DNA of 43,847 bases from Candidatus Bathyarchaeota archaeon (GCA_016783485.1 JADHWM010000007.1:1-43847); one strand, 5' to 3'; positions 29,953 to 43,783 are shown, counted from the first letter of the stretch. The notes: a model not told the origin generated them from the sequence alone. Translations and numbers: made by a program.

Positions 29953-30405
29953 TTAGGCACTCTGCTGAAGTGCCACCTGTTCCGCCGGGACACCCTCGAC
30001 GCCAATGTCTCGGGTCTCAGAGGGGGAGTGGAGGAGATCAGGCGGGGGATAGGGGACCTCGAGCTGGGCTGCGAGTAGGTAGAGTGACGTGAACACTCGC
30101 TGGTAGACGAAGTGGAGGACCTTGGGGACGCTCGACTCCTCGTCCATCTCGAGGGCGGCGTCGAAAGCCTCCCGCCCCCCAGAGATCACCGCGGTCCCCC
30201 CAACCTCGAACTTCACGAGGGAGGGCTTCGTGCGTATGGTGAGGTTGAATGTGAGGGTGAGCTCCCCGTTGGTCCTGTTCTCCTCGTCCATGCTAACATC
30301 CACGTCGAAGGTGACAGAGTCTGGCGTAGCCCCGGTGTCGATCCTCGTGCCCTCCACCTTGCCCAGCTTTACCCGGATGGGCGCCACGCCAACAATAGAC
30401 TCCAA
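29953..30405 (-). CDS. Small uncharacterised protein, possible SecB-like fold
   Basis: 150 aa from TTG; alternating beta pattern TFDVDVSMDEENRTNGELTLTFNLTIRTKPSLVKFEVGGTAVISG followed by VLHFVYQRVFTSLYLLAAQLEVPYPPPDLL. Confidence 0.55.
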   Translation of the reverse strand: MESIVGVAPIRVKLGKVEGTRIDTGATPDSVTFDVDVSMDEENRTNGELTLTFNLTIRTKPSLVKFEVGGTAVISGGREAFDAALEMDEESSVPKVLHFVYQRVFTSLYLLAAQLEVPYPPPDLLHSPSETRDIGVEGVPAEQVALQQSA

Positions 30406-30561
30406 GTAATGTCCCCACTAACGTCTAGACTCGCAACTCACCCGAACATGGTCTGATCTTCGAAGGTCAAATGAGCCGGAGAGGGTTTTGTGAATATGTG
30501 TGTAGCCTCTACGACATTCAACGGACCCAGCGGATCAAACCCCTGAGCCAAAGCTGGGCAA

Positions 30562-31191
30562 CTAGCCAACCTCCACCAGGGAGTCGGCGATGGACTGAAG
30601 CTCCTTGGTGACGCTCGAGAGGAAATTAATCCTGTTCTCGATCTTGCTCCTCCTCTGAGCGACCAGCGCATTGAACCGGGGCATCGCGTCGCTCACCACC
30701 GTGACCAGCAGATCACGGTTCTCAACGTCTGTGAGGTCCACCGACTCCATCCTCCCGTCCCGGTGAAGGACGACCAAATCCCCCTTGGGCAGAACGTTGG
30801 CTTTCTCGACGGCCCCGAGCTCGAGGGGGAGGACGCCTGCATCCACGGGCAGAGCCTTGGTGAGGGGCTCCATGAGCTTCAGGAACGCGAGGGAGAACGC
30901 CGCCACGATGCTCCCCTCCTCCGAGCTGAGCTCGCTGATCTGCCCAACGTCTTCCCTGAGCCGCCTCAGTGTCTCGACCACCGCATCGGGAGACGCTGGC
31001 ACGGCCACCCTGGGAACCGATGACTGGACAGCGGGCCCGGGCATCTCATGTGGAGCCTCATCCACCCTATCTTCTGACTCTGGCTGAGTATCACTTATGG
31101 GCTCGAGGCTTTCACCTTCATCGGAGCCGCTCACGTCGACAATATCAGTGCCTTCCTCCTCTTGTGAGCCCTGGGAATCATCCTGTGACAT
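30562..31191 (-). CDS. Uncharacterised protein with acidic N-terminal linker and helical C-terminus
   Basis: From ATG 31191: MSQDDSQGSQEEEGTDIVDVSGSDEGESLEP... then ordered region ending QRRSKIENRINFLSSVTKELQSIADSLVEVG. Confidence 0.6.
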   Translation of the reverse strand: MSQDDSQGSQEEEGTDIVDVSGSDEGESLEPISDTQPESEDRVDEAPHEMPGPAVQSSVPRVAVPASPDAVVETLRRLREDVGQISELSSEEGSIVAAFSLAFLKLMEPLTKALPVDAGVLPLELGAVEKANVLPKGDLVVLHRDGRMESVDLTDVENRDLLVTVVSDAMPRFNALVAQRRSKIENRINFLSSVTKELQSIADSLVEVG

Positions 31192-31332
31192 GAACCGCCC
31201 TTCTCCACGGACAGATACCCCGAAACAAAGTATCACGATAAGACTTTGTGTGTAGAAATCCCCCACATCAAGCTGAGAACGATAGAAGGTTGCCCCCTAG
31301 GAAGCCCCATTCAGTTAATTGACGGGATCACC

Positions 31333-31359
31333 GTATCAGAGGACACGTTACGCTGATAC
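31333..31359. promoter_or_regulatory. Operator-like inverted repeat in the divergent region before the MoxR gene
   Basis: GTATCAG (31333-31339) and CTGATAC (31353-31359), perfect 7-bp inverted repeat with a 13-nt spacer. Confidence 0.45.
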
Positions 31360-31418
31360 TTCACAGTTTCCTCTACCGGGAGACCGTATCGCCGGTGAAG
31401 AATCTATTTATTCCCGCC

Positions 31419-31442
31419 TTGAAGGGTTGATAAAACCCTCAA
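31419..31442 (+). promoter_or_regulatory. Hairpin upstream of the MoxR gene
   Basis: TTG-a-AGGGTT-gataa-AACCCT-CAA: 9 paired bases with a one-nt bulge. Confidence 0.4.
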
Positions 31443-31503
31443 CGGGACGCAGTTATCGAGACAATCGAGGAGCAATTCGGAGGATAATCCAGGTGTCGAC
31501 GCC

Positions 31504-32538
31504 TTGACGAATGAAAGCAAATCTCTAGGGTACGGCCATCAGGGGCTCAAAGAGCATGACGTCAGCAAAGTAGAGGAGATCAAGTCGTCCCAGGGCCGGA
31601 ACGGGAAGATCACCGTCCGCATGCAGAAGCAGCGGGCGATCACGACGAGCCCCCTCTACTACAAATATGACATCCAGAAATACGATCTCCACCCCAACTA
31701 CTACTTCGACGACGTCGCAGGGATGATCCCCAGCGGAGTCCCCGAGTACATCGATGCCGGCAACCAGTACGTGGAGCGCATCATCAGGGCGATGTACTAC
31801 TTCAAACAGTGCGCCCTCATCGGCCCCAGCGGCACAGGGAAGACCCACATCATCTACCTCGTCGCCGAGCTCACTGGACTCCCGGTCTGGGAGGTGAACT
31901 GCGGCCTACAGACGAGTAGCTACGACCTCATCGGCCGCTTCGTGGGGCTCGGGAAGGAGAACTGGATCGACGGCCAGGTCACCCTCTGGCTCAGGCACGG
32001 GGGCATCCTCTACCTCGACGAGGCGAACATGATGAAACAGGACGTCGCGACCCGCCTCAACCCGGTGCTGGACACCCGGGGCCACCTCGTCCTCACCGAG
32101 AAGGACAACGAGATCGTCCCCCGCCACAAGTACGCCTACTGCATCATCGCGATGAACCCCGCCACGGCCGAGTTCGCAGGGGCCAAGAAGCTGAACGCCG
32201 CGTTCAGGAGGAGGATGGCGGTCTGGATCAACTTCAAGTACCAGAGCATCGGCGAGAAGATCGCGGCGAGGGAGGCCGAGCTAGTGATGAAACGGTCCAA
32301 GGTAGACGAGGACACAGCTTACAAGCTCCTCAGGGTGGGGGCCGAGATGCGGAGGCAATATCTCGCCGGGGACCTCCCCTACGGTCCGAGCCCGGGCGAC
32401 ATCATCAACTGGGCGGTCCTCTGCAACGACGGCGTCGACCCGAAGAAGGCTGCCGAGGAGACCATCATCGCCCTCACCAGCGACAATCATGAAGTCCAGG
32501 AAGACGTCAGGCGGATCATCGATAGCGTATTCCGCTGA
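31504..32538 (+). CDS. MoxR/CbbQ-type AAA+ ATPase
   Basis: 344 aa; Walker A GPSGTGKT, Walker B GGILYLDEANMM, LNPVLDTRGHLVL, IIAMNPA, LNAAFRRRMAVWINF; TTG start. Confidence 0.92.
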   Translation: MTNESKSLGYGHQGLKEHDVSKVEEIKSSQGRNGKITVRMQKQRAITTSPLYYKYDIQKYDLHPNYYFDDVAGMIPSGVPEYIDAGNQYVERIIRAMYYFKQCALIGPSGTGKTHIIYLVAELTGLPVWEVNCGLQTSSYDLIGRFVGLGKENWIDGQVTLWLRHGGILYLDEANMMKQDVATRLNPVLDTRGHLVLTEKDNEIVPRHKYAYCIIAMNPATAEFAGAKKLNAAFRRRMAVWINFKYQSIGEKIAAREAELVMKRSKVDEDTAYKLLRVGAEMRRQYLAGDLPYGPSPGDIINWAVLCNDGVDPKKAAEETIIALTSDNHEVQEDVRRIIDSVFR

Positions 32539-32559
32539 AAATCATCGGGAAAGCGTCGG

Positions 32560-34263
32560 CTAAACTGCGTCATCACAGGCCTGGTAGAATCTTTGACTGA
32601 ACCTGTTGACGAACTGTTTGAGCGTGTACGATGTGCAGTGAGAGTCGAAGAGGTACTCCATCCGCCCGCTCTGAGCCCCTATGCCGATCACCGCCATATT
32701 CGCGGCCACGAGATTACTGATGATCTCCGAGGCAGCGGAGTGAATGTCTTTGTACCCGTAGGGCCAGCCATCGGAGATGACCATCATCACCTTGAGCTCC
32801 TCCCTCCTCGCAACCAGGGCCCTCCCCGCGAGCTCGATCGCGTCAGGCATGAAGGAGAGGCCCCTGAAGGCCAAGCCTCCGAGCCTGGCCTTGACTCGGG
32901 CGTTGTAATGCTCGCTGAAGTCCTTGATGATCTCGAACCGGTCGTTGAAGGCGAAGACGCTCCACGATGTCATGTCCAGTAGAACCTTGCCCGCGGACTC
33001 CGCCAGGATGACGGCGGTCTCCAGCGCGTAGTCTCTGACGTTCCTCATGCTAGTGCTCGCGTCGACGACGATGGCCCAGGCGAAGCTCTGCTTGATCTTC
33101 TCGTCCTTGAGGAAGATGTCGGTCCTTTCGCTCTTGCTCGCGATGACCTGGACGGCGTCTGCGAGGTCGAGGACCCCGAACTTCTTCCTGATGTCCTCCA
33201 TGTACTCGTTCATCGCCCCATTCAGGGCCTCGGTCATCTTGCTGGTGCTCCGCTTGCACCTCTCCTTGACCCGCAGGTACTCGGAGTAATCCTTGTTGGG
33301 GAACCCCAGGGAGTTGAACCTAGTGGATTGCGCAGGCTCCTCGTATCTCGAGAGAATCTTCCGCTCTTTCTCCTTCTCGAGAAAGTGGGATTCGAAGACC
33401 TGGAGCGCTTCCGCCTCCGACACTCTGCCAGGTTGAGACTGCCCTACGACAACCTGATCTCCACTGAGACCCTCGACGCACTCGGCCAGAAGCCCCTCAA
33501 ACCACTCCTGAGTGCCCACCCTCATGGGCGGAAAGAGGCTGCTTGCACCCAGATTCTCAGAAAAAGGCGGTGAGGGAGCCTCGATTATGGGCCCATACTC
33601 CAACAGGGCTCTGTAGACGGATTCAGCCGCTTCCAGCTTCTGGGGGAGGATGTCCGTCTCTTCATCGCGCAGGGACCTGCCAACAGCTTCCCTGAATCTC
33701 CTCAATAATTGGTAGAGGGGCTCAACGATGCCCAGGTCATAATCGGAGACATAACTAGTGAGACCGGTGTTGGCATAGACCATCAGGGATACCATGAGGC
33801 GGGTCGCCTGGACCCGTATGTTATCTACGCTCCTGAGCCTCGCAAGCATCATCGCCCCCGCGAATCCTAGGTCCAACACTTTGTCGGGATACCAGGTGGC
33901 GACGCATTGATTGACCCATATATCCTCCACCAGGGAGACCACGAAATTTGACAATACATCGTTCTTCCCCTCCCTCCACCCGTCGTAGGCGATATCCTTC
34001 CAGGACAACGTATGGCCGCTGAGGTGATAAACCGAGGCCCTGAAGAGCCAAACGATCTTTTTCCTGCCCTCCACGTCGTCTGGGAAAGTATATTCAAGGA
34101 ATGCAAGCGTTCCATCCCCGATTCTGGGTAAAGGGAGCTTAACGATGAATCCTAGCTCGTCCTCATCGAAATCGGGATACTCCAGGTCATATGCCATGAT
34201 GAACTTGAGTTTCAGTGGATCCTTCTCGAAAGAAAGGGATCTGGCGTACTCATCGAACCCCAT
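32560..34263 (-). CDS. von Willebrand factor A (vWA) domain protein
   Basis: C-terminal FAWAIVVDASTSMRNVRDYALE (MIDAS DxSxS), FNDRFEIIKDFSE, KVMMVISDGWPYG. ATG 34263 (MGFDEYARSL) preferred over 34335. Confidence 0.88.
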   Translation of the reverse strand: MGFDEYARSLSFEKDPLKLKFIMAYDLEYPDFDEDELGFIVKLPLPRIGDGTLAFLEYTFPDDVEGRKKIVWLFRASVYHLSGHTLSWKDIAYDGWREGKNDVLSNFVVSLVEDIWVNQCVATWYPDKVLDLGFAGAMMLARLRSVDNIRVQATRLMVSLMVYANTGLTSYVSDYDLGIVEPLYQLLRRFREAVGRSLRDEETDILPQKLEAAESVYRALLEYGPIIEAPSPPFSENLGASSLFPPMRVGTQEWFEGLLAECVEGLSGDQVVVGQSQPGRVSEAEALQVFESHFLEKEKERKILSRYEEPAQSTRFNSLGFPNKDYSEYLRVKERCKRSTSKMTEALNGAMNEYMEDIRKKFGVLDLADAVQVIASKSERTDIFLKDEKIKQSFAWAIVVDASTSMRNVRDYALETAVILAESAGKVLLDMTSWSVFAFNDRFEIIKDFSEHYNARVKARLGGLAFRGLSFMPDAIELAGRALVARREELKVMMVISDGWPYGYKDIHSAASEIISNLVAANMAVIGIGAQSGRMEYLFDSHCTSYTLKQFVNRFSQRFYQACDDAV

Positions 34264-34484
34264 CAATCCCCGCCTCGCTGATAGTAGTTGCCCCCCGGAA
34301 TAGATCTTGAGAGCTCGCCTATTCCGAAATAGCATGGGACGGTGAATCGGAGACGCTCAGCCAGGCCCTCTAGTCTCTCAATCATCTCGGTTGTTTCGGT
34401 CAAAACTCGGAGAGATTCTTCATAAACGCCTGTCTGTGAGGAAAAAGACCAACACTGCACCCACGAAGAGAGCATGCATGCCAT
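34263..34484 (-). CDS. Small helical ORF translationally coupled to the vWA gene
   Basis: 73 aa; TGATG overlap with the vWA start at 34263; EESLRVLTETTEMIERLEGLAERLRF amphipathic helix. Exact start uncertain. Confidence 0.45.
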   Translation of the reverse strand: MACMLSSWVQCWSFSSQTGVYEESLRVLTETTEMIERLEGLAERLRFTVPCYFGIGELSRSIPGGNYYQRGGD

Positions 34485-34541
34485 GAGGCTGGGAGTTAGC
34501 GTATGTGAAGTGTTTCAAAGAAACGGAGGCGGGCATGGGCC

Positions 34542-35060
34542 CTATCGTTGGACGGCCTGGATGACGGTGAACCCCCTGTTGAAGGTGAACCTCGCCAGGG
34601 CGTCGTCGTCCACGGGATTGATGATGATCTTCCTTAGGACGCCTTCCTCTAGGTAGCAGATGTACCTGATGTCGTTTCCGAGCCCGACCTTCCTGAGCTC
34701 CTCGAGGGACTCAATCCCCCTGCTCAGCGCCTCCAGCTTCTCCGAGATCTTCGAGATGGCCTCGAACATCACCTCGGCCTCTCCCTGGAGGCTTGAGCTG
34801 AGCTCTATTCCCTGGAACTGGACCCAGTCGGAGCCTTTCCTCTTCTTGTCGTTCTTCTTGCTGCCGAGTTTCTCGAGGTCAAGCTGCTTGAACCAGTCCT
34901 CGTCGCCGTGCTCCTCCTCGGCCTCCCGCAGGAAATTCCCGAGGCGCTCGCTGATCTCCTCCTTTTGGGACAGGTACGACTCGCTCTCAGCTTCGAGACG
35001 AGTCTGGAGCTCCTGGAGCGAGCGGATGGTGACGATCTCGGTGACGAGCCTCCCGTTCAA
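34542..35060 (-). CDS. Coiled-coil protein of unknown function
   Basis: 172 aa; long heptad-like segment LQELQTRLEAESESYLSQKEEISERLGNFLREAEEEH and a C-terminal beta-rich part. Confidence 0.65.
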   Translation of the reverse strand: MNGRLVTEIVTIRSLQELQTRLEAESESYLSQKEEISERLGNFLREAEEEHGDEDWFKQLDLEKLGSKKNDKKRKGSDWVQFQGIELSSSLQGEAEVMFEAISKISEKLEALSRGIESLEELRKVGLGNDIRYICYLEEGVLRKIIINPVDDDALARFTFNRGFTVIQAVQR

Positions 35061-35171
35061 GCGAATCCTCCCTTAGTAATTGTTCGGCCCTTGCCTTAGC
35101 CTCTGACCAGAATGAGCTCCGAGTTTTAATGAGGATTTGTGAGTTTTACGGCACTACACACTCAGCTAGGT

Positions 35172-35948
35172 CTAGCCGAGGAAGAAAGGCTTCAGGGTGG
35201 CGAGAGCGATATCACCCAGCGCCAGCGCCAGTACGTATCCGATGGCGATGTAGACCAAGAAGGGCAGGGTGTTGGAGACCCAGACCTCCTCCACGCCCGA
35301 GGCCTCCAATGTTGTGAAGACCTCCACCGCCGAGTCGTCGTCCTGGATGTCGGGCATGAGGATCAGCCTTCTACCCTGCATCTCCTCGGTTCCGGGTACC
35401 TCGAGGGGATACTGGAACGGGGGGCCCCTCACGGACCCAACCTCCATCTTGATCCCGGTGAACATGACCACGAGCTTCCTCCAGGTGGACTCGTCCTCGA
35501 GCCCGCTGAACAGGTTCCTGCCTTGAAGGGTCGACGCTAGGTTCCGGACCAGGAGGACGAGGGAGAAGGATGCACCGCATATAGCTGAGTTGGAGAACAG
35601 AGTGAGAGGGAAAAGAGGAGACACAATCCCGAGGGAAGGTTCCAGCCCTCGTGGGGATGTGGGATGGAGAACTGCGAGAGCGATGAACGCAAGCACGTCT
35701 GCGCCCCCGAACAGGCCGAGGTATCCCAAGCCGATTGATATTGCCGAGGAGATCAGAACCACGGCCACGAACCAGACCAGGGTGAGGCTGCCCGTGTATA
35801 CCTCGTAGAGGGCGATTATCAGCCCGAGGCCCCCGAACACCAGCCAGACCATGTCGTAGATCTCCCTGGTCTTCAGGTCGACCCAGGACGTGTAGCCCAG
35901 CATGGTGAGGCTGAGGAGGACCCTCAGGGCGTCCAGGGTGTTCAGAAT
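35172..35948 (-). CDS. Archaeal A24-family prepilin peptidase
   Basis: LGYTSWVDLKTREIYDMVW (first Asp), GLFGGADVLAFIALAVL (GGAD second Asp), C-terminal VWVSNTLPFLVYIAIGYVLALALGD. End given as 35948 because TM1 lies upstream of the ATG at 35903 (see findings). Confidence 0.85.
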   Translation of the reverse strand: MLNTLDALRVLLSLTMLGYTSWVDLKTREIYDMVWLVFGGLGLIIALYEVYTGSLTLVWFVAVVLISSAISIGLGYLGLFGGADVLAFIALAVLHPTSPRGLEPSLGIVSPLFPLTLFSNSAICGASFSLVLLVRNLASTLQGRNLFSGLEDESTWRKLVVMFTGIKMEVGSVRGPPFQYPLEVPGTEEMQGRRLILMPDIQDDDSAVEVFTTLEASGVEEVWVSNTLPFLVYIAIGYVLALALGDIALATLKPFFLG

Positions 35949-36005
35949 GGTGCACCTCTATTCTCGAACAGATTACCGTTTCAAGTCGCTTTTAAGGAGT
36001 TGTCG

Positions 36006-36761
36006 TCAACCCTCGACGAGGGTCTCCTGGGCCTGAACGAAGACCCCTCTCACGTCATTGACTCGCATGCGGATATTGATATGGTTCCCCGGGACTCCTG
36101 CACTGAATGTGAATCTATAGATCCCGTTCCCGTAATCCATAAACGCATAATCACCCTCCTGTGAAGCGTCGTTCCAAAGCCCAATACTCATGTACTCAAG
36201 CGCCGTAGATTGCGCCAGAGCTGGGGAATCCTCGTTCAGCACGTAAAGTGTTACGGTGACGTTTTTCTGGTTCCCGGAGATCACTGTGTAGCTCCCCAAG
36301 GTCCTGATCTCCGTGGTCTTGTTTACCGGGAAAGCCCAGTCGACCTCCGCTCCCCGGCCACCGATATTAAGTGTGAAGTCGACGTATGCGCTGGAGACCC
36401 CCACGCCCGAGGTCCCCCAGTCGAGCCAGATCCCGTCAGAATATGGCACTTGAGACCCAAGGGTCGCATTGAGGTCGCAGACACCGAACCTGTAATCGCC
36501 CCTCGTGAACGCCTCCCACCGGACGAGGTTGACACCCAGATTCGAGGAGGCCCCCCCATGGCTGACGTTGACGAGGGAAGCTGTGACGGTGTGAATCGAC
36601 CCCAGCCTGATGTGCTGAGCATAGTCGATCAGTGTGCCGTACGCCGGGGATGCATCGATCCTGCTGTTCCTGTAGATGTACACGTTGGCGGACAGGAGTA
36701 GGATGGAGATAGCGAAGGCGGCCACAATGAGGACCTGCCCACGCCTGAAACTGGCTTTCAT
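36006..36761 (-). CDS. Pilin-like protein, class III signal-like N-terminus
   Basis: MKASFRRGQVLIVAAFAISILLLSANVYIY: basic RRGQ followed by a hydrophobic helix, then a beta-rich ectodomain. Confidence 0.75.
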   Translation of the reverse strand: MKASFRRGQVLIVAAFAISILLLSANVYIYRNSRIDASPAYGTLIDYAQHIRLGSIHTVTASLVNVSHGGASSNLGVNLVRWEAFTRGDYRFGVCDLNATLGSQVPYSDGIWLDWGTSGVGVSSAYVDFTLNIGGRGAEVDWAFPVNKTTEIRTLGSYTVISGNQKNVTVTLYVLNEDSPALAQSTALEYMSIGLWNDASQEGDYAFMDYGNGIYRFTFSAGVPGNHINIRMRVNDVRGVFVQAQETLVEG

Positions 36762-37175
36762 CTATGGGCCTCCTAGCTGCAGGCGTAGCCTGTATATGGG
36801 ACAGGTGCTCGACTCGACGGCAAGGAGATACTCAACGCTCTCGATCCTCCGCCCCGAGACGCCGCCATTGGATATCTCCCTCGTGTTTACTACGGTACCC
36901 TGCTCGTCAATCACCGTCATGTTGAAGGATACTCGGGTCGGCAGAACGACTCGGAGAGCCAGCTCAAGGCCGTCCCAGTCTCCAGAATCCACGAGGCGCC
37001 CCAGGATCCCGTTGGATTCGAGCATCAGCAGTGCCTGCATCCCCAAGGAGTCGAGGCCCGTCTCCTCGAGGTAATCCCTCTCCCTCGGCATCTGAGAGGC
37101 AAAGAGGAGGGTGGTCACTATGATAACCGCGGCGAGGAACACGTCCAAGGTGTGGACCACGCCCCTCCTAGTCAT
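36762..37175 (-). CDS. Pilin-like protein
   Basis: MTRRGVVHTLDVFLAAVIIVTTLLFASQ; short basic RRG then hydrophobic helix; operon position. Confidence 0.65.
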   Translation of the reverse strand: MTRRGVVHTLDVFLAAVIIVTTLLFASQMPRERDYLEETGLDSLGMQALLMLESNGILGRLVDSGDWDGLELALRVVLPTRVSFNMTVIDEQGTVVNTREISNGGVSGRRIESVEYLLAVESSTCPIYRLRLQLGGP

Positions 37176-38202
37176 ACTCGGCAGGGCTCCTGAACTTCAT
37201 CCCGCACCTGTATAGACCCCCTTCGATCTCAACGACGTACTCCACGACCCTGACATCCGAGACGACGTAGTCGTCGTCCATGTCCCCCCCCACCACCAAC
37301 GGGACCTGAGGGTATGCTACCCACTCCGCCCAGCGGTCCGTGCCGTTGATGCCGGTGAGGGTGACGACCATGGAGCCCCCGGCGAGGAGCCTAGGAATGG
37401 TATAGTCGGACCCCGAGGCGGTGAGGTTGAAGGAGTATCCGTACGAGAAAACCGCAGCGTTCCAGGCGGAGGCCCCGCCGGTCAGGGAGACACCGAGCAT
37501 GTAGTCGAGGGGACTCAGAGAGGCGAATGCTCCCGGCTGGCTCGGTTGGCTGATGTTGTGGGCGAAGGGTAAGACATCGAAGCTCATGATTGAGCCCTCT
37601 GCGCGAGCTATCCCGATCAACATTGCGGTGCCGTTCAGGGAGTTGGGGAGGGTGAACTGGACGGTCCCGGAGCCGTCCAGGGTCGTAGGCCCCGAGGATG
37701 AGTGCGTCGAGTTCCCTACAGCTACGTAATAACTCACCTGACACGGAAGGGGAAACCCGTCCCTCACCGCCGTGGCTGAGAAGTCGTACACTGTATCGCT
37801 CCCCTGAACCTGAGAAGAGGCCAGTGTCAAAGTGAGGTTGAACAAGGGCTCGACTGAGATCCGGAACGAGACATCGTCGATGCCCAGTGCCTGCCAGAGC
37901 GTGGAGTAGTTCAAGGATTGGGAGTGATCCGGGTTGAGGCGGGTCACCTTGTCGATGTCGAGCTGATAGGGGTCGCCACCGGCGGCTAACCCCAGCTCTG
38001 TGGGGGTGCCTCCCGTTCCCCAGCCTGCCGGCTCACCCCTCGATAGGAGGATGTATCGCCCTATCTGCTGGTAGCGCTCGACGCCGTGGACTTCCCCATC
38101 CAGGTAGGGTGCCACAACCATGCTGACGCCGAAGACCGCCCCGAGGGTGACCACGATCATCGCGATGGCGGCCAGGGTGAAGTCCACTGAGGCGGTGGGC
38201 AT
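37168..38202 (-). CDS. Pilin-like protein with large ectodomain
   Basis: ATG 38202: MPTASVDFTLAAIAMIVVTLGAVFGVSMVVAPYLDGEVHG; TAATG overlap with the TadC stop. The listed start at 38718 lies in tadC and is rejected. Confidence 0.7.
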   Translation of the reverse strand: MPTASVDFTLAAIAMIVVTLGAVFGVSMVVAPYLDGEVHGVERYQQIGRYILLSRGEPAGWGTGGTPTELGLAAGGDPYQLDIDKVTRLNPDHSQSLNYSTLWQALGIDDVSFRISVEPLFNLTLTLASSQVQGSDTVYDFSATAVRDGFPLPCQVSYYVAVGNSTHSSSGPTTLDGSGTVQFTLPNSLNGTAMLIGIARAEGSIMSFDVLPFAHNISQPSQPGAFASLSPLDYMLGVSLTGGASAWNAAVFSYGYSFNLTASGSDYTIPRLLAGGSMVVTLTGINGTDRWAEWVAYPQVPLVVGGDMDDDYVVSDVRVVEYVVEIEGGLYRCGMKFRSPAEYD

Positions 38203-39689
38203 TAGAACATCCCCCCGAAGAGCCCCGTCACGAGTCGAACGGAGAGGATGAGGGTGAAATATGAGGTGATAGCCAGGAGGGCCGCGTACTTGAAGCCCGA
38301 CGCGAAGTTCCCCTCGCTGACTTTCCCGATGAAGAATCCGGAGAGCCAGCTGTGGAAGACGATCCCCGCCCGGATGATGCCCCCTCCCCCGCTCATGTCG
38401 ACGTTGATCTGAGGGGCCGCGATAGAGCCCGCCGCGAGGGCCGGGATCTGGCTGAGGGTCTCCATGGTGAACGTGATGGTGAACGCCATCAGGATGGTCC
38501 AGATGAAGGGGAGGATCACGTAGGGCCGGAGCATGTCCCTCTGGCTCTTCTCGATGCTCTGGATCCTCTCGGTGTACTCCGCGAGGAGCCCCAGGGTGTC
38601 CGCGTCCCCGCCACCGATCTCGATGGTCTCCACGAGGATGAAGAAGTCCACAACCACGGGCCAGCTCTTGATCCACTCCGTGAGATCCGTGTAGATCTTC
38701 CTCAAGGAGACCCCCCACTCGATCTGGCTGTTGATCCGGCTGAGATCCGCCGTGAAGGGGCCGTAGCCCTTCCTCTTGGCGGCGTGGGAGATGCTCTTCT
38801 CCGGGGAGATCCCCGTCCTCCTCGCCTCGGTCACGTCCCTCATGAAGCTGGGTATCGCATTCTCAGCCGAAAAGTTCCTTCTGGAGATTCTACTGTAGAC
38901 GAGGATGGGGGGAATGCAGACCGCCACCAGCCCAGCGGTGACGATGGAGGCCAACCCCACAGTTTCCGTCACCCAAGATAGCTCTGGCAGGAGCTGGGTC
39001 GCCGCAAGGATAGCCGCAAAGAGGATCAATGGGATCGCCCCGGCGATGTAGGGCTCCCTCATCCCCCTCAGGGTGCCCGGCCTCGCGAGATTAGCCAAGT
39101 ACATGAAAAAGAACGAGAAGATAGGTATCACGTACAGGACTAGCGGATATATTAGAGCCGACGTGTCGGGGAGGCCCACGTCCCCCAGCATCTCGGTGGC
39201 GGGGGAGGTCACCGTGGAGAGGATATAGAAGCAGAATATGACGATGAGGAGCACCATGTAGGCTTCGACGAGGGTCTCGAGGCGCTCCACGGCGTTCCTG
39301 GCGTTCGAGGCATGGACATCGAAGATGCTCCTTAGCTTGCTCGTGAGGTAGTTGATGACGCTGCCACCGCTCCGCACCGAGGAGATGTACCCTTCCAAGA
39401 AGTCGGCGTACTGCCTCGAGACCGTTTTCTCTGCCCGCTTCCCCATCGCTGTGAGGGGGTCGTTCCCCAGGACCTCGACGAGACGTACGATCTCGTCCCC
39501 CTCCTCCTTGAACTTGTGGAGGATGTCCACCTTCCGGAGCCTCTTGAAGCTCTCATAGGGCGTGATGCCGCTGGCGGCCATCAGGGTGATCATCATCGTG
39601 GCGTAGGGGAGCTCGGCCTCGAGCTTCGGGTCCGAGTCCCCATCGAGGACCTGCTTGATCCTGCTGCGCCACCCAGTCTCCTCCAACAT
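38202..39689 (-). CDS. Type II secretion/pilus assembly membrane platform (TadC/FlaJ-like, two F domains)
   Basis: 495 aa multi-TM; two F-domain-like segments (ASGITPYESFKRLRKV...GSVINYLTSKL and RRTGISPEKSISHAAKRKGYGPF...EIGGGDADTLGLLAEYTERI). Confidence 0.88.
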   Translation of the reverse strand: MLEETGWRSRIKQVLDGDSDPKLEAELPYATMMITLMAASGITPYESFKRLRKVDILHKFKEEGDEIVRLVEVLGNDPLTAMGKRAEKTVSRQYADFLEGYISSVRSGGSVINYLTSKLRSIFDVHASNARNAVERLETLVEAYMVLLIVIFCFYILSTVTSPATEMLGDVGLPDTSALIYPLVLYVIPIFSFFFMYLANLARPGTLRGMREPYIAGAIPLILFAAILAATQLLPELSWVTETVGLASIVTAGLVAVCIPPILVYSRISRRNFSAENAIPSFMRDVTEARRTGISPEKSISHAAKRKGYGPFTADLSRINSQIEWGVSLRKIYTDLTEWIKSWPVVVDFFILVETIEIGGGDADTLGLLAEYTERIQSIEKSQRDMLRPYVILPFIWTILMAFTITFTMETLSQIPALAAGSIAAPQINVDMSGGGGIIRAGIVFHSWLSGFFIGKVSEGNFASGFKYAALLAITSYFTLILSVRLVTGLFGGMF

Positions 39690-39698
39690 CTCTCCTCC

Positions 39699-41282
39699 CT
39701 ATGTGTCCTGGCTCACCTTCTGGTACATCGCCGCGGGGTCGTTGTAGTACTTGTTGAGGACCTCGTTGACGCTCCGGTAGTCCCTGATGTTCATGTTAGC
39801 CATCCAGAGAAGGATGTCCTTCCTCCTATCCAGCTCCTCCACGAGGAAATCGACGGAGAGGTCGAGGCTCAAAGCCATCTGCTTCAGGAGGTAGCTCTCA
39901 GCGAAATTGTCGTCGAAGGTGTCCGTCCCAGGGTTCCACTTGGAGACCTCCACGGTCCCCCCGGCCCGGGTGACCTCCGCGATGTTCACAAACTTCCTGT
40001 TCGAGCTCCGCCGCTCCCCGCTGACGAACATGGGACTCTTGACGTGCTTAACCACGATTACGCAGTTCATCAAGGGAAGAATGTCCGCGGGGATATCCAT
40101 CGGAGGCTGGGTGAGCCTCTTCAGGGCGATATCGACGCTGTCCGCGTGCATCGTGCATAGGCCGCCGTGGCCCGTCGCGAGGCTCTGGAACAGTACGTAG
40201 GACTCGTCGCCCCTGATCTCGCCCACGATGATGAGGTCTGGCCGGTGGCGTACGGCCGACTTGATGAGGTCGAAGAGGGAGATCTCCCCGCTACGCTCTA
40301 TCCCGAAGCCTGGGCGGGAGATCATGGAGACCCAGTTCTCGTGGGGGAGGTTGACCTCGGCGACCTCCTCGACGGTGATGAGCTTGTAGCTCGGGTGGGT
40401 GAGGCACGCCACCGCGTTGAGGGCTGTGGTCTTGCCGGCTCCAGTAGAGCCCACGATCATCGCCGAGTACTTGTTCTCCATGAGCAGCCAGAGGTAAGCA
40501 GCGGAGGCCTCGCTTAGGGTCTCCATCTTGATGAGATCCACGATGGTGATGGGGTCGGTCCTGAACTTCCTGATGGTGAAGCTGGTACCGGAGGGCGTCA
40601 CCTCCTTCCCGTATGTGACTGCGAGCCTGTGCTTCCCTGGGAGGGTCGCGTCGACGATGGGATAGGCCAAGCTGACGTGTTTCCTGGCCTTGTGGACCAG
40701 CTTGATGATGAAGTCGTTGAGCTCCTCCTCCCCGAACTGGATGGTGGTCCGGATGTTCTCGAAGTTCCTGTGCCAGAGGAACAAGGGCTTCCCGAACCCG
40801 GTGCAGCTGATGTCCTCTATCCCGGGGTCGTGCATAAGGGGGTCCACCTTGTCGAAGCCCGCTATGTCCCTCTCCAGATAGTAGAGGACCTTCTTGATGC
40901 CGATGGGGGTGAGGCCCGAGACGAGCTTCTTGTTCTCCCCCAGGATAAGGGGCACCTGCTCGTTGAAGGCCTCAGCGATGTTCTGGCCCTCCCTCGGGGC
41001 CTCGAGTTCCTTCTCCAGGATGTCGTTGAGCTTCTCGCTGACTTCTCTCTCCTCGGCGTCCATGAGGAGTTCGTCGACGATGAAGATGTGCTCCGATGTC
41101 TCCTCGTCCTTAGCTATGATGCAGTATGAGAACGGGGCCCGGAGAGGATAGCTCTCCACCTCGACGTAGCCTTCCGGGACTTTCCACCGGTTTATTCCGA
41201 GGGCGCCCAGCAGGGTGTCCCGAGGCACCCCCTCGTCCCCGATGTCCTTGAGCCTGCTCTTCTTCCGCCTGAATGCCATCAA
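39699..41282 (-). CDS. Type II/IV secretion system (VirB11/TadA/FlaI) ATPase
   Basis: 527 aa; IVGSTGAGKTTALNAVACLTHPSYKLITVEEVAEVNLPHENWVSMISRP, RHRPDLIIVGEIRGDESYVLFQSLATGHGGLCTMHADS. Confidence 0.95.
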   Translation of the reverse strand: MMAFRRKKSRLKDIGDEGVPRDTLLGALGINRWKVPEGYVEVESYPLRAPFSYCIIAKDEETSEHIFIVDELLMDAEEREVSEKLNDILEKELEAPREGQNIAEAFNEQVPLILGENKKLVSGLTPIGIKKVLYYLERDIAGFDKVDPLMHDPGIEDISCTGFGKPLFLWHRNFENIRTTIQFGEEELNDFIIKLVHKARKHVSLAYPIVDATLPGKHRLAVTYGKEVTPSGTSFTIRKFRTDPITIVDLIKMETLSEASAAYLWLLMENKYSAMIVGSTGAGKTTALNAVACLTHPSYKLITVEEVAEVNLPHENWVSMISRPGFGIERSGEISLFDLIKSAVRHRPDLIIVGEIRGDESYVLFQSLATGHGGLCTMHADSVDIALKRLTQPPMDIPADILPLMNCVIVVKHVKSPMFVSGERRSSNRKFVNIAEVTRAGGTVEVSKWNPGTDTFDDNFAESYLLKQMALSLDLSVDFLVEELDRRKDILLWMANMNIRDYRSVNEVLNKYYNDPAAMYQKVSQDT

Positions 41283-41285
41283 CTC

Positions 41286-41741
41286 TCAACCACTCTCCCA
41301 ACGCGCCAAGACGACCGTTTGAACGCCGCCCTGGATGGTGCAGTTCATCATCAGCGTCCCGAAGCCCCCCCTGTAAGTCCCCGACGCGTCTACGCCCCAG
41401 GGAAGCTCAACCCTGTGGTCGGGGTTCCCTGCCCAGGGCTCCCCGAAGGCTCCCTCCACCCAGGCCTCGGTTGTGTCGGAGTGGAGCCTTATCCAGTACT
41501 CCCTGTCGCCGATCAGCGTAGGTGTCAGGAGGCTCACCTTCGCGGTGGCGTTTGTCGCCTCCGTGAACGCGATGAGCTCTGTGGCCTCAGTAGCCACCGC
41601 CTCTAGGAGCTCCCGGAGCTCTTGGCGATCGGAGAAGGCTTTGAGGCCCGCGACCTGAATCTTGAACGCGTTGGTGATCATGAGGGCGACGACTCCCATC
41701 GCCACGATGGTGTAGAAGTAGCTGGTGGCCTGGGAAGGCAT
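41286..41741 (-). CDS. Pilin-like protein
   Basis: MPSQATSYFYTIVAMGVVALMITNAFKIQVAGLKAF N-terminal TM, beta-rich remainder, operon position. Confidence 0.65.
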   Translation of the reverse strand: MPSQATSYFYTIVAMGVVALMITNAFKIQVAGLKAFSDRQELRELLEAVATEATELIAFTEATNATAKVSLLTPTLIGDREYWIRLHSDTTEAWVEGAFGEPWAGNPDHRVELPWGVDASGTYRGGFGTLMMNCTIQGGVQTVVLARWESG

Positions 41742-42562
41742 CAGATGGCCACCCCCTCGATCTTCACGCTGCTCACCACCACCTCGACCCGGACCGATGA
41801 GCCGGAGGCCCCGACGCTTATGGGCACCGAGATGGTCCGGGTCGCCCCGTCGAGGCTAACGAAGACGCTCATAACGGTGTCGGAGGCGGTGCCGTTGAAT
41901 GTGTCGAGGCTGGTCGTGACGTCGATGCAAGTGACTTTGACGTGGAACTCCCCACCAGATGTGATGCCCTCAGACGCGTTGAGGTTGATCACATAGATCC
42001 TCACATAGTTGATCCTCCGACCGGCAGACAGGCCATCCACCGACGACGAGACCAGAGGCCTGTATCGGGAGACCAGCTCCTGATATTCAGAGCCAGTTAC
42101 GACGCTCATCTGAGCTTGATACGAGGTGCTCTGGTTGACGACAGCCCTCCTGTCCCCCCTGATCCACCGGCCCTCCCGCCCCAGGATCGTGCTGGGGAGC
42201 TCGTAGATGAAGCGCCCCGTGTCGCTGTTATAGACCGTGCCGTTCGACGCCCCGAGGGTGACGTTGATCTGCAACGGGTTGGCCGCTGTCTCGACCCTGA
42301 GCTGCCCCCCGTAGTCCGAGAAGGCTAGGGTCCGGGACCCGGAGGGGGTCCAGGCCGTGGATGTGATGGCCTCCTCGAGGTCGAGCATCTTCTCCTCCGC
42401 CGCTACCAGCTTCAGGTCTTCCTTTCTGGCGTCGATCTGTCTCAGGGCGTAGTTGTAGGCCACGGTGGAGACCAGGGTGAGGGAGAAGACTATGAGGAGG
42501 AGGCTCACGGGGGCGGCGAGGCCTCTGCGTTTCTTCGGATTTTCCCTATCCTTTCTCCTCAA
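41741..42562 (-). CDS. Pilin-like protein
   Basis: MRRKDRENPKKRRGLAAPVSLLLIVFSLTLVSTVAYNYALRQIDARKEDLK; basic RRG then TM; first gene of the operon. Confidence 0.7.
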   Translation of the reverse strand: MRRKDRENPKKRRGLAAPVSLLLIVFSLTLVSTVAYNYALRQIDARKEDLKLVAAEEKMLDLEEAITSTAWTPSGSRTLAFSDYGGQLRVETAANPLQINVTLGASNGTVYNSDTGRFIYELPSTILGREGRWIRGDRRAVVNQSTSYQAQMSVVTGSEYQELVSRYRPLVSSSVDGLSAGRRINYVRIYVINLNASEGITSGGEFHVKVTCIDVTTSLDTFNGTASDTVMSVFVSLDGATRTISVPISVGASGSSVRVEVVVSSVKIEGVAI

Positions 42563-42663
42563 TGTTCTCGCTCTCCATTTTGTCTCGGGGCGGATCGCCT
42601 CTCCATTGCCTAACCTCGTCCAGACTGACCGCGGGCTCTTTGTTTCACCTTGGAAAAAGTCCG

Positions 42664-42693
42664 GATATCTCGGTTTGTGTGTAGCTGATATCT
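42664..42693. promoter_or_regulatory. Paired GATATCT elements upstream of the pilus operon
   Basis: GATATCT at 42664-42670 and 42687-42693, start-to-start spacing 23 bp, between the TrmB gene and the pilin operon. Confidence 0.4.
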
Positions 42694-42731
42694 ACCACTG
42701 ACATGTGTCGAGAAAAGGGATGAGGGATGGA

Positions 42732-43691
42732 TTACAGGGCCTCGGGGGGCAGCTCGGGGAGCTCCGTGACGTCCTCGTGGGGCACGCTCTTCTCGGCCCA
42801 GAGGAGGTCGAAGAGCAGCCTGAATGACTGCACCAGGGTCAGGTAGTTGGTCCACATCGCGTAGGGCTTCCCGTCGTCCCCGTCCCGGTGCAGGAGGAGG
42901 AGCATCTGGCCGTTGTCGGAGATGATGAAGCACGGGGAGTCCTCGATCTCCTTGTAGTCGAAGTCTCCGCTCCCCAGGTCCACCTCCTCGAGGACGTAGC
43001 TGCTCGTGGGGGAGAAGTTGGTGATGAGGCTGACCTTGACCCCTTTCTTCTTCGCTATCTTCTCGAGGTCGTCGAAGAAGGGGGAGTTGAAGAGCCAGAG
43101 GAGTGTTTCGTCCCTGAGGATCATGTGGATCTCGTCGGTGCAGGCGCTCAGTATCTCGGTGGCCTTCACCCCCAGCTGCCTCCTGCCCTCGAGGACCTGG
43201 AATGTCTCTTTCCGGGTGGTCTTGTCCTCCGGGGTGGGGAGGCTTCGCCAGGTCTTGAGGAGCTCCTTCTTCCACTGCTCCATCTGGTGAACCCTCTGGC
43301 GCCTTTCCTCGATGAGGCTCCCCAGGGCCTTCTCGAAGGGGACCGAGACGAACTTCATGGGTCTCTCGAAGACGCAGGAGACGAGCCCCTGCTTCTCGAG
43401 GCGGCGGAGGATCTTGTAGGCCTCGGTCCTGTGGACGCTGAGGGCCTCTGCGATCCTCTGGGCTTTCTGGGCCCCGAATCGGGCGAGGTAGAGGTAGACT
43501 CGGACCTCGTTCTTGGAGAGGTCGAACCGGCTGAGGGCGTCCTTGATGTGTCTGAGGGACTTGAGGTGCTCCGCCTCGGCTTCTGTGACCCTCTTGGTGT
43601 TGATCCTGCTCCGGACGGTGAGGAGTTCGAGGTCGTATTCTTGGTCCTCGTCTGTCTCGGAGTTTAATCGCGATACTCGTTCTAGCTGCAT
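42732..43691 (-). CDS. TrmB-family transcriptional regulator
   Basis: LSKNEVRVYLYLARFGAQKAQRIAEALSVHRTEAYKILRRLEKQGLVSCVFERPMKFVSVPFEKALGSLIEER, TrmB-type wHTH. ATG 43691 preferred over 43766. Confidence 0.92.
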   Translation of the reverse strand: MQLERVSRLNSETDEDQEYDLELLTVRSRINTKRVTEAEAEHLKSLRHIKDALSRFDLSKNEVRVYLYLARFGAQKAQRIAEALSVHRTEAYKILRRLEKQGLVSCVFERPMKFVSVPFEKALGSLIEERRQRVHQMEQWKKELLKTWRSLPTPEDKTTRKETFQVLEGRRQLGVKATEILSACTDEIHMILRDETLLWLFNSPFFDDLEKIAKKKGVKVSLITNFSPTSSYVLEEVDLGSGDFDYKEIEDSPCFIISDNGQMLLLLHRDGDDGKPYAMWTNYLTLVQSFRLLFDLLWAEKSVPHEDVTELPELPPEAL

Positions 43692-43766
43692 TTTCCTGTC
43701 CCGGGGAAGGGTTGAGTGAGAGCTTAAAAGAGAATTATGGAATGATATCACTTGTCTGAAATCCAT

Positions 43767-43783
43767 GATATTCGGTGAATATC
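43767..43783. promoter_or_regulatory. Palindromic operator-like element upstream of the TrmB-family gene
   Basis: GATATTC-GGT-GAATATC, perfect 7-bp inverted repeat with a 3-nt spacer. Confidence 0.55.

Follow-up and report, generated by a model that had tools for sequence, protein, structure and literature searches.

What does a MoxR-type AAA+ ATPase, together with a partner carrying a von Willebrand factor A (vWA) domain, do beside the genes of an archaeal type IV pilus? The question is raised by a block of 14 genes at positions 29953-43766 of the stretch of DNA analysed here (the window, the 43,847 nucleotides of JADHWM010000007.1), which comes from a metagenome-assembled genome (MAG) of the Bathyarchaeia; among named records the closest is Candidatus Bathyarchaeota isolate QDN_3, whose MoxR is 96% identical. 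We consider it rather probable (about 0.6) that the locus encodes a family of non-archaellum archaeal type IV pili, designated T4P-A, with a dedicated cytoplasmic module for its maturation or control, and likely that this module acts on the pilus machine. Besides MoxR and the vWA protein, the module comprises a coiled-coil protein (cc172), p234 and the SecB-like p150.

The evidence that carries this reading is co-occurrence. In 164 Bathyarchaeia genomes of at least 85% completeness (the sample, to which the window's own genome was added), we searched separately for MoxR, the TadC platform, cc172 and p150. TadC subfamily A (TadC-A) was taken to comprise the matches with E-values no worse than 1e-101 together with three split genes, other TadC proteins scoring from 1e-87 upward. 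MoxR and TadC-A were both present in 54 genomes and both absent in 103, with 4 genomes holding MoxR only and 3 TadC-A only (Fisher test, p = 1e-34, a value that overstates independence, as the genomes are related). TadC-A accompanies cc172 in 55 of the 57 genomes where the latter is found, and is shared with p150 in 55 of 57; all four families are present, as neighbours or not, in 52 of the 61 genomes holding any of them. Two controls behaved differently: another TadC group, TadC-B, occurs without MoxR in 25 genomes, and between archaellin and TadC-A no association was seen (12 genomes with both, p = 0.53). Six genera (g1, g33, g41, g45, g48 and g55) include both members that carry the set and members that lack it, the families mostly varying in concert; this joint presence and absence argues against shared ancestry alone. 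The sequence-only reading had proposed a link of MoxR, the vWA protein and the small proteins to the pilus, and their near-perfect co-occurrence with one TadC subfamily gives it strong support.

Several points weigh against this reading. Besides the relatedness of the genomes, the subfamily thresholds were chosen after gaps in the score lists were seen; TadC-A occurs without MoxR in three genomes (G085, G178, G156) and MoxR without TadC-A in four (G027, G109, G154, G174), the latter partly through incomplete assembly (the G027 contig stops inside the peptidase gene); CheC was not detected in the window genome, its sister or G006; and the target of the module could be pilins or something else. 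Distance counts too, as homologues usually lying away from pilus genes had been named beforehand as evidence against the link. On this the outcome is mixed: MoxR and TadC-A share a contig in 22 genomes, within 25 kb of each other in 20 and far apart in 2, and are on different contigs in 30, yet the co-occurrence persists. A genomic island co-inherited without functional coupling would account for genes that are contiguous in many related MAGs, but hardly for a co-occurrence that holds on separate contigs or across hundreds of kb (G130, G141) and in other gene orders, and we regard it as very unlikely. More improbable still is a defence system lying by chance near pilus genes: ternary conflict systems built on MoxR-vWA do exist (PMC7159879), but we recognised no effector or third-component gene, and the single MoxR copy per genome tracks the pilus. 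PADLOC returned no convincing match.

Open reading frame (ORF) and family scans of the window confirmed the block, with the following genes.

42732..43766, minus strand: TrmB-type helix-turn-helix regulator (Pfam TrmB, 5.2e-16); start possibly 43691
41741..42562, minus strand: pilin-like protein, 273 residues (hydrophobic helix at the N-terminus, operon position, synteny)
41286..41741, minus strand: pilin-like protein, 151 residues (N-terminal hydrophobic segment, synteny)
39699..41282, minus strand: pilus assembly ATPase of the VirB11/FlaI superfamily, T4P-A subfamily (T2SSE, 2.7e-32)
38202..39689, minus strand: TadC-type membrane platform, subfamily A (two T2SSF domains; class-wide search)
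37168..38202, minus strand: pilin-like protein, 344 residues (N-terminal hydrophobic segment, synteny)
36762..37175, minus strand: pilin-like protein, 137 residues (N-terminal hydrophobic segment, synteny)
36006..36761, minus strand: pilin-like protein, 251 residues (N-terminal hydrophobic segment, synteny)
35172..35948, minus strand: class III prepilin peptidase (Arc_PepC_II, 1.9e-12; Peptidase_A24, 1.2e-8); start uncertain
34542..35060, minus strand: coiled-coil protein cc172, 172 residues (in 57 of 164 genomes)
32560..34263, minus strand: vWA protein, N-terminal domain of about 390 residues and C-terminal vWA domain with a metal ion-dependent adhesion site (MIDAS) (VWA_2, 4.7e-7)
31504..32538, plus strand: MoxR AAA+ ATPase of the CbbQ/NorQ type (AAA_5, 3.2e-21; CbbQ_C, 2.1e-14)
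30562..31191, minus strand: p234, acidic N-terminus and conserved C-terminal domain
29953..30405, minus strand: p150, 150 residues, SecB-like chaperone (predicted SecB fold)

The genes of the pilus operon (42562-36006, on the minus strand) stand close together, with intergenic gaps of -8 to +9 bp, and are followed by the prepilin peptidase, cc172, vWA, MoxR, p234 and p150 genes; MoxR, on the plus strand, is convergent with vWA, 21 bp away. As the pilin-like ORFs gave no match above cut-off in the Pfam scan, they are identified by N-terminal hydrophobic segments and synteny. The most likely starts are 34263 for the vWA gene (MGFxDYA, as in relatives) and 31191 for p234. A 40-residue ORF at 34385-34263, overlapping the vWA start, is probably spurious and is not counted as a gene, since its frame is not kept in the sister genome, where only 26 residues survive, out of frame and uncoupled to vWA. 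The contiguous gene set of the sequence-only reading thus holds in its families and extent, but that reading had included this ORF as a small gene coupled to vWA, had missed the opposite strand of MoxR, and had listed the 150-residue protein as uncharacterised, overlooking its SecB fold.

Nearly the whole block recurs in near-identical order in G001, G005, G006 and G016, from three genera of the family, so its order is not due to chance. It lies in two pieces in G003, with TrmB to vWA in one and MoxR (interrupted by an assembly gap), p234 and p150 some 300 kb away; this MAG is a single scaffold with an N gap in MoxR (L055, L056), and either a rearrangement or a scaffolding error is possible. 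The pilus genes and the MoxR-vWA pair of G059 are on separate contigs. We surveyed 81 MoxR loci (the genome scan gave 80, and one was added; many are on short contigs): vWA adjoins MoxR in all 81, sharing its strand in 79 and separated from it by no more than 60 bp in 76, and the loci also hold p234 (66), cc172 (54) and p150 (48). The inversion of vWA relative to MoxR is thus an exception peculiar to the genus of the window.

The pilus itself is not an archaellum. An ATPase, a TadC platform, pilins and a class III prepilin peptidase are the components of a non-archaellum archaeal type IV pilus, and although ATPase, platform and peptidase share ancestry with those of the archaellum (ArlI/J/H, archaellins), the locus has no archaellin and no ArlH/F/G, and archaella coexist elsewhere in some genomes bearing T4P-A. 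The window ATPase scores 325 bits against the FlaI model, under the 550-bit cut-off. In the ATPase tree the bathyarchaeal T4P-A enzymes form a clade (support 100/99), which joins three thaumarchaeal ATPases linked to MoxR (98/100); the archaellum ATPases (ArlI) stand apart (100/100). Archaellin (PF01917) served as the archaellum marker, Arch_fla_DE being uninformative (zero in all 45 genomes).

What, then, could the module do? MoxR matches NorQ/CbbQ in the Protein Data Bank (PDB) and is an AAA+ protein with a CbbQ_C domain, with Walker A and Walker B intact in all 81 homologues and the arginine-finger motif in 80. Its partner carries a C-terminal vWA domain whose MIDAS (DxSxS-T/S-D) is complete in 40 of 40 aligned relatives, as scored by alignment column counts (a strict regular expression undercounted). 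The AlphaFold2 model of the vWA protein (pLDDT 89) has as nearest PDB folds NorD (9qhd, E 5e-8) and the MIDAS domains of midasin. The pair thus resembles NorQ/NorD and CbbQ/CbbO in domain make-up and fold but differs in neighbours and target, the locus having no nor or rubisco genes. For the N-terminal domain of about 390 residues we found no relative by sequence or fold, the matched PDB chains being about the size of the vWA domain. Within it, an HxxxH followed by ED (H80, H84, D114) is kept in about 35 of 40 relatives, and from sequence conservation these residues may form a metal site. In NorQD a finger of the vWA domain reaches into the pore of MoxR. The literature describes the N-terminal domains of NorD and CbbO as having no relation to each other and tentatively assigns them the choice of target (PMC13036017, PMC9976466); by analogy with them, the N-terminal domain should recognise a pilus target here.

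Drawing on NorQ/NorD, we infer the following mechanism. The vWA domain would dock on the MoxR ring, while the N-terminal domain and the MIDAS would bind the pilus target, most likely the motor platform formed by the ATPase and TadC; ATP hydrolysis by MoxR would then remodel this target, so that assembly is licensed or the motor switched. The SecB-like and coiled-coil proteins may hold or deliver unassembled pilus parts. The module might instead regulate expression in the manner of ArnA/ArnB, as suggested in 2016, since ArnB, itself a vWA protein, represses archaellum expression and the census of that year groups MoxR-linked vWA proteins with it (PMC4858521). A TrmB regulator is also commonly nearby, with homologues near MoxR or pilus genes in 30 of the 81 loci. 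The Pfam scan, however, detected neither a DNA-binding nor an FHA domain among the module proteins, and the nearest folds of the vWA protein are NorD and midasin (ArnB was set apart by description only), so that control of expression seems an improbable role.

The AlphaFold2 model of p150 (pLDDT 82.8) has a four-stranded sheet and two helices, and its 23 best Foldseek matches are all SecB, the SecB-like Rv1957 or the uncharacterised streptococcal structures 2hng and 2o2a; Rv1957 and SecB rank first (E 8e-5, probability 1.0, TM-score about 0.55). A sequence-profile search of the PDB gave no match, SecB being recovered by fold only. Judged by its predicted model, p150 is a SecB-fold chaperone with a putative holdase role, differing from SecB and Rv1957 in being archaeal and pilus-linked. 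A second SecB-like family, of about 145 residues, is widespread in Bathyarchaeia genomes outside the MoxR-vWA module, and p150 therefore looks like a specialised SecB-like paralogue. There is also a 141-residue paralogue of cc172 in genomes that carry pili of other types (L149-L154, L158); its gene immediately follows that of a class III pilin and precedes one for a conserved protein of about 220-390 residues that is roadblock-like by eye. We found no Pfam match for p234, and its homology with cc172, suspected by eye, was rejected (hhalign probability 0.3%).

In relatives the module is also linked to chemotaxis, a feature that had escaped the sequence-only reading. CheC (PF04509) is present in 20 of the 164 genomes, 18 of them with TadC-A (p = 7.5e-8) and 14 without detectable archaellin. 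Over about 28 kb in G114, pilins, ATPase, TadC and pilins are followed by TrmB, CheA, CheR, CheC, CheD and CheY, and then by MoxR, vWA, a protein of 128 residues, CheW, CheB and the first part of a receptor-like gene (the Che proteins of this genome were identified by similarity to those tested in other relatives); its archaellum genes sit on another contig. On a 2.15-Mb contig of G079, a genome without archaellin, the module, the T4P-A genes and a CheA-CheD-CheC-CheC-CheR-MCP-CheW-CheB series, including a methyl-accepting chemotaxis protein (MCP), lie within about 45 kb. A che operon stands between SecB-cc172 and p234-MoxR-vWA in G138, and CheC is at most a few kb from MoxR in G059, G104, G109, G110, G113 and G115. 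A protein of 114-128 residues is encoded beside the che genes in three module-bearing genomes (L160:16830-17174, L162:13202-13555, L170:5613-5999); the one member examined has no Pfam match, and the protein is a candidate adaptor between Che proteins and pilus. A Che operon adjoining type IV pilus genes recalls the bacterial Pil-Chp system, but that system, of the Tfp class, is defined by a multi-Hpt CheA with a receiver domain, whereas CheA in L160 has one Hpt, a P2 and no receiver, and CheC and CheD are present in the relatives; the window genome differs further in having no detectable CheC.

As CheA, CheW, CheY, CheR, CheB, CheC and CheD adjoin the module in these relatives, it is a candidate route there by which a chemotaxis signal would reach the pilus. 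We tentatively extend this to a type IV pilus steered by chemotaxis, which would serve surface motility without an archaellum, MoxR-vWA and the SecB-like protein linking Che output to the motor and the window holding a chemotaxis-free version. The lack of CheC in the window genome and its close kin implies that the module can do without chemotaxis and that signalling is an add-on. The same presence in che-less genomes suits a set of chaperones that serves only to build the pilus (as prepilin holders, in metal insertion or in motor assembly) and takes no part in dynamics or signalling, as do the SecB fold of p150 and the maturation of complexes by MoxR/vWA pairs such as NorQD (PMC13036017, PMC9976466). 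Assembly alone is insufficient, though, to explain MoxR beside che genes in eight genomes (G114, G138 and the six with CheC a few kb from MoxR), and such a restricted role, while possible, is doubtful.

The link between MoxR-vWA and type IV pili has been reported before. Makarova, Koonin and Albers (2016) found a pair formed by the vWA protein arCOG02900 and the GvpN/MoxR ATPase arCOG00441 strongly tied to thaumarchaeal type IV pilus loci of subclade 4A, and considered it potentially regulatory or modulating (PMC4858521). The system is thus not undescribed as a whole, as the sequence-only reading had it, since its core was published for Thaumarchaeota. Our pair is likened to theirs by its neighbourhood, beside an archaeal pilus ATPase and TadC, and not by arCOG assignment; relatives of the window MoxR in Nitrososphaerota are 58-67% identical, and some adjoin pilus ATPases. 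What is new is the linked unit of at least five proteins, with its near-obligate co-occurrence and its chemotaxis linkage; neither these nor the SecB-like, coiled-coil and p234 proteins are described in that census, whose main text does not include Bathyarchaeia and which states that evidence for non-archaellum archaeal pili being under chemotactic control was lacking (PMC4858521). Full-text searches on Bathyarchaeia, pili and chemotaxis, covering few subscription papers, turned up no description of the linkage reported here.

To our knowledge, no dedicated pilus retraction ATPase is known in most archaea, and how their pili are controlled is an open question. A near-obligate AAA+/vWA companion, within what is now a defined five-protein module, provides a concrete candidate for such control. 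That a SecB-like chaperone co-occurs with a single type of pilus suggests that archaeal pilus parts have a chaperone route of their own. Where the 2016 census had none, the loci give genomic evidence tying chemotaxis to non-archaellum archaeal type IV pili. Because the helper genes almost always accompany this pilus, and a che operon stands beside them in some relatives, our data suggest that they build or control a pilus able to join in directed movement.

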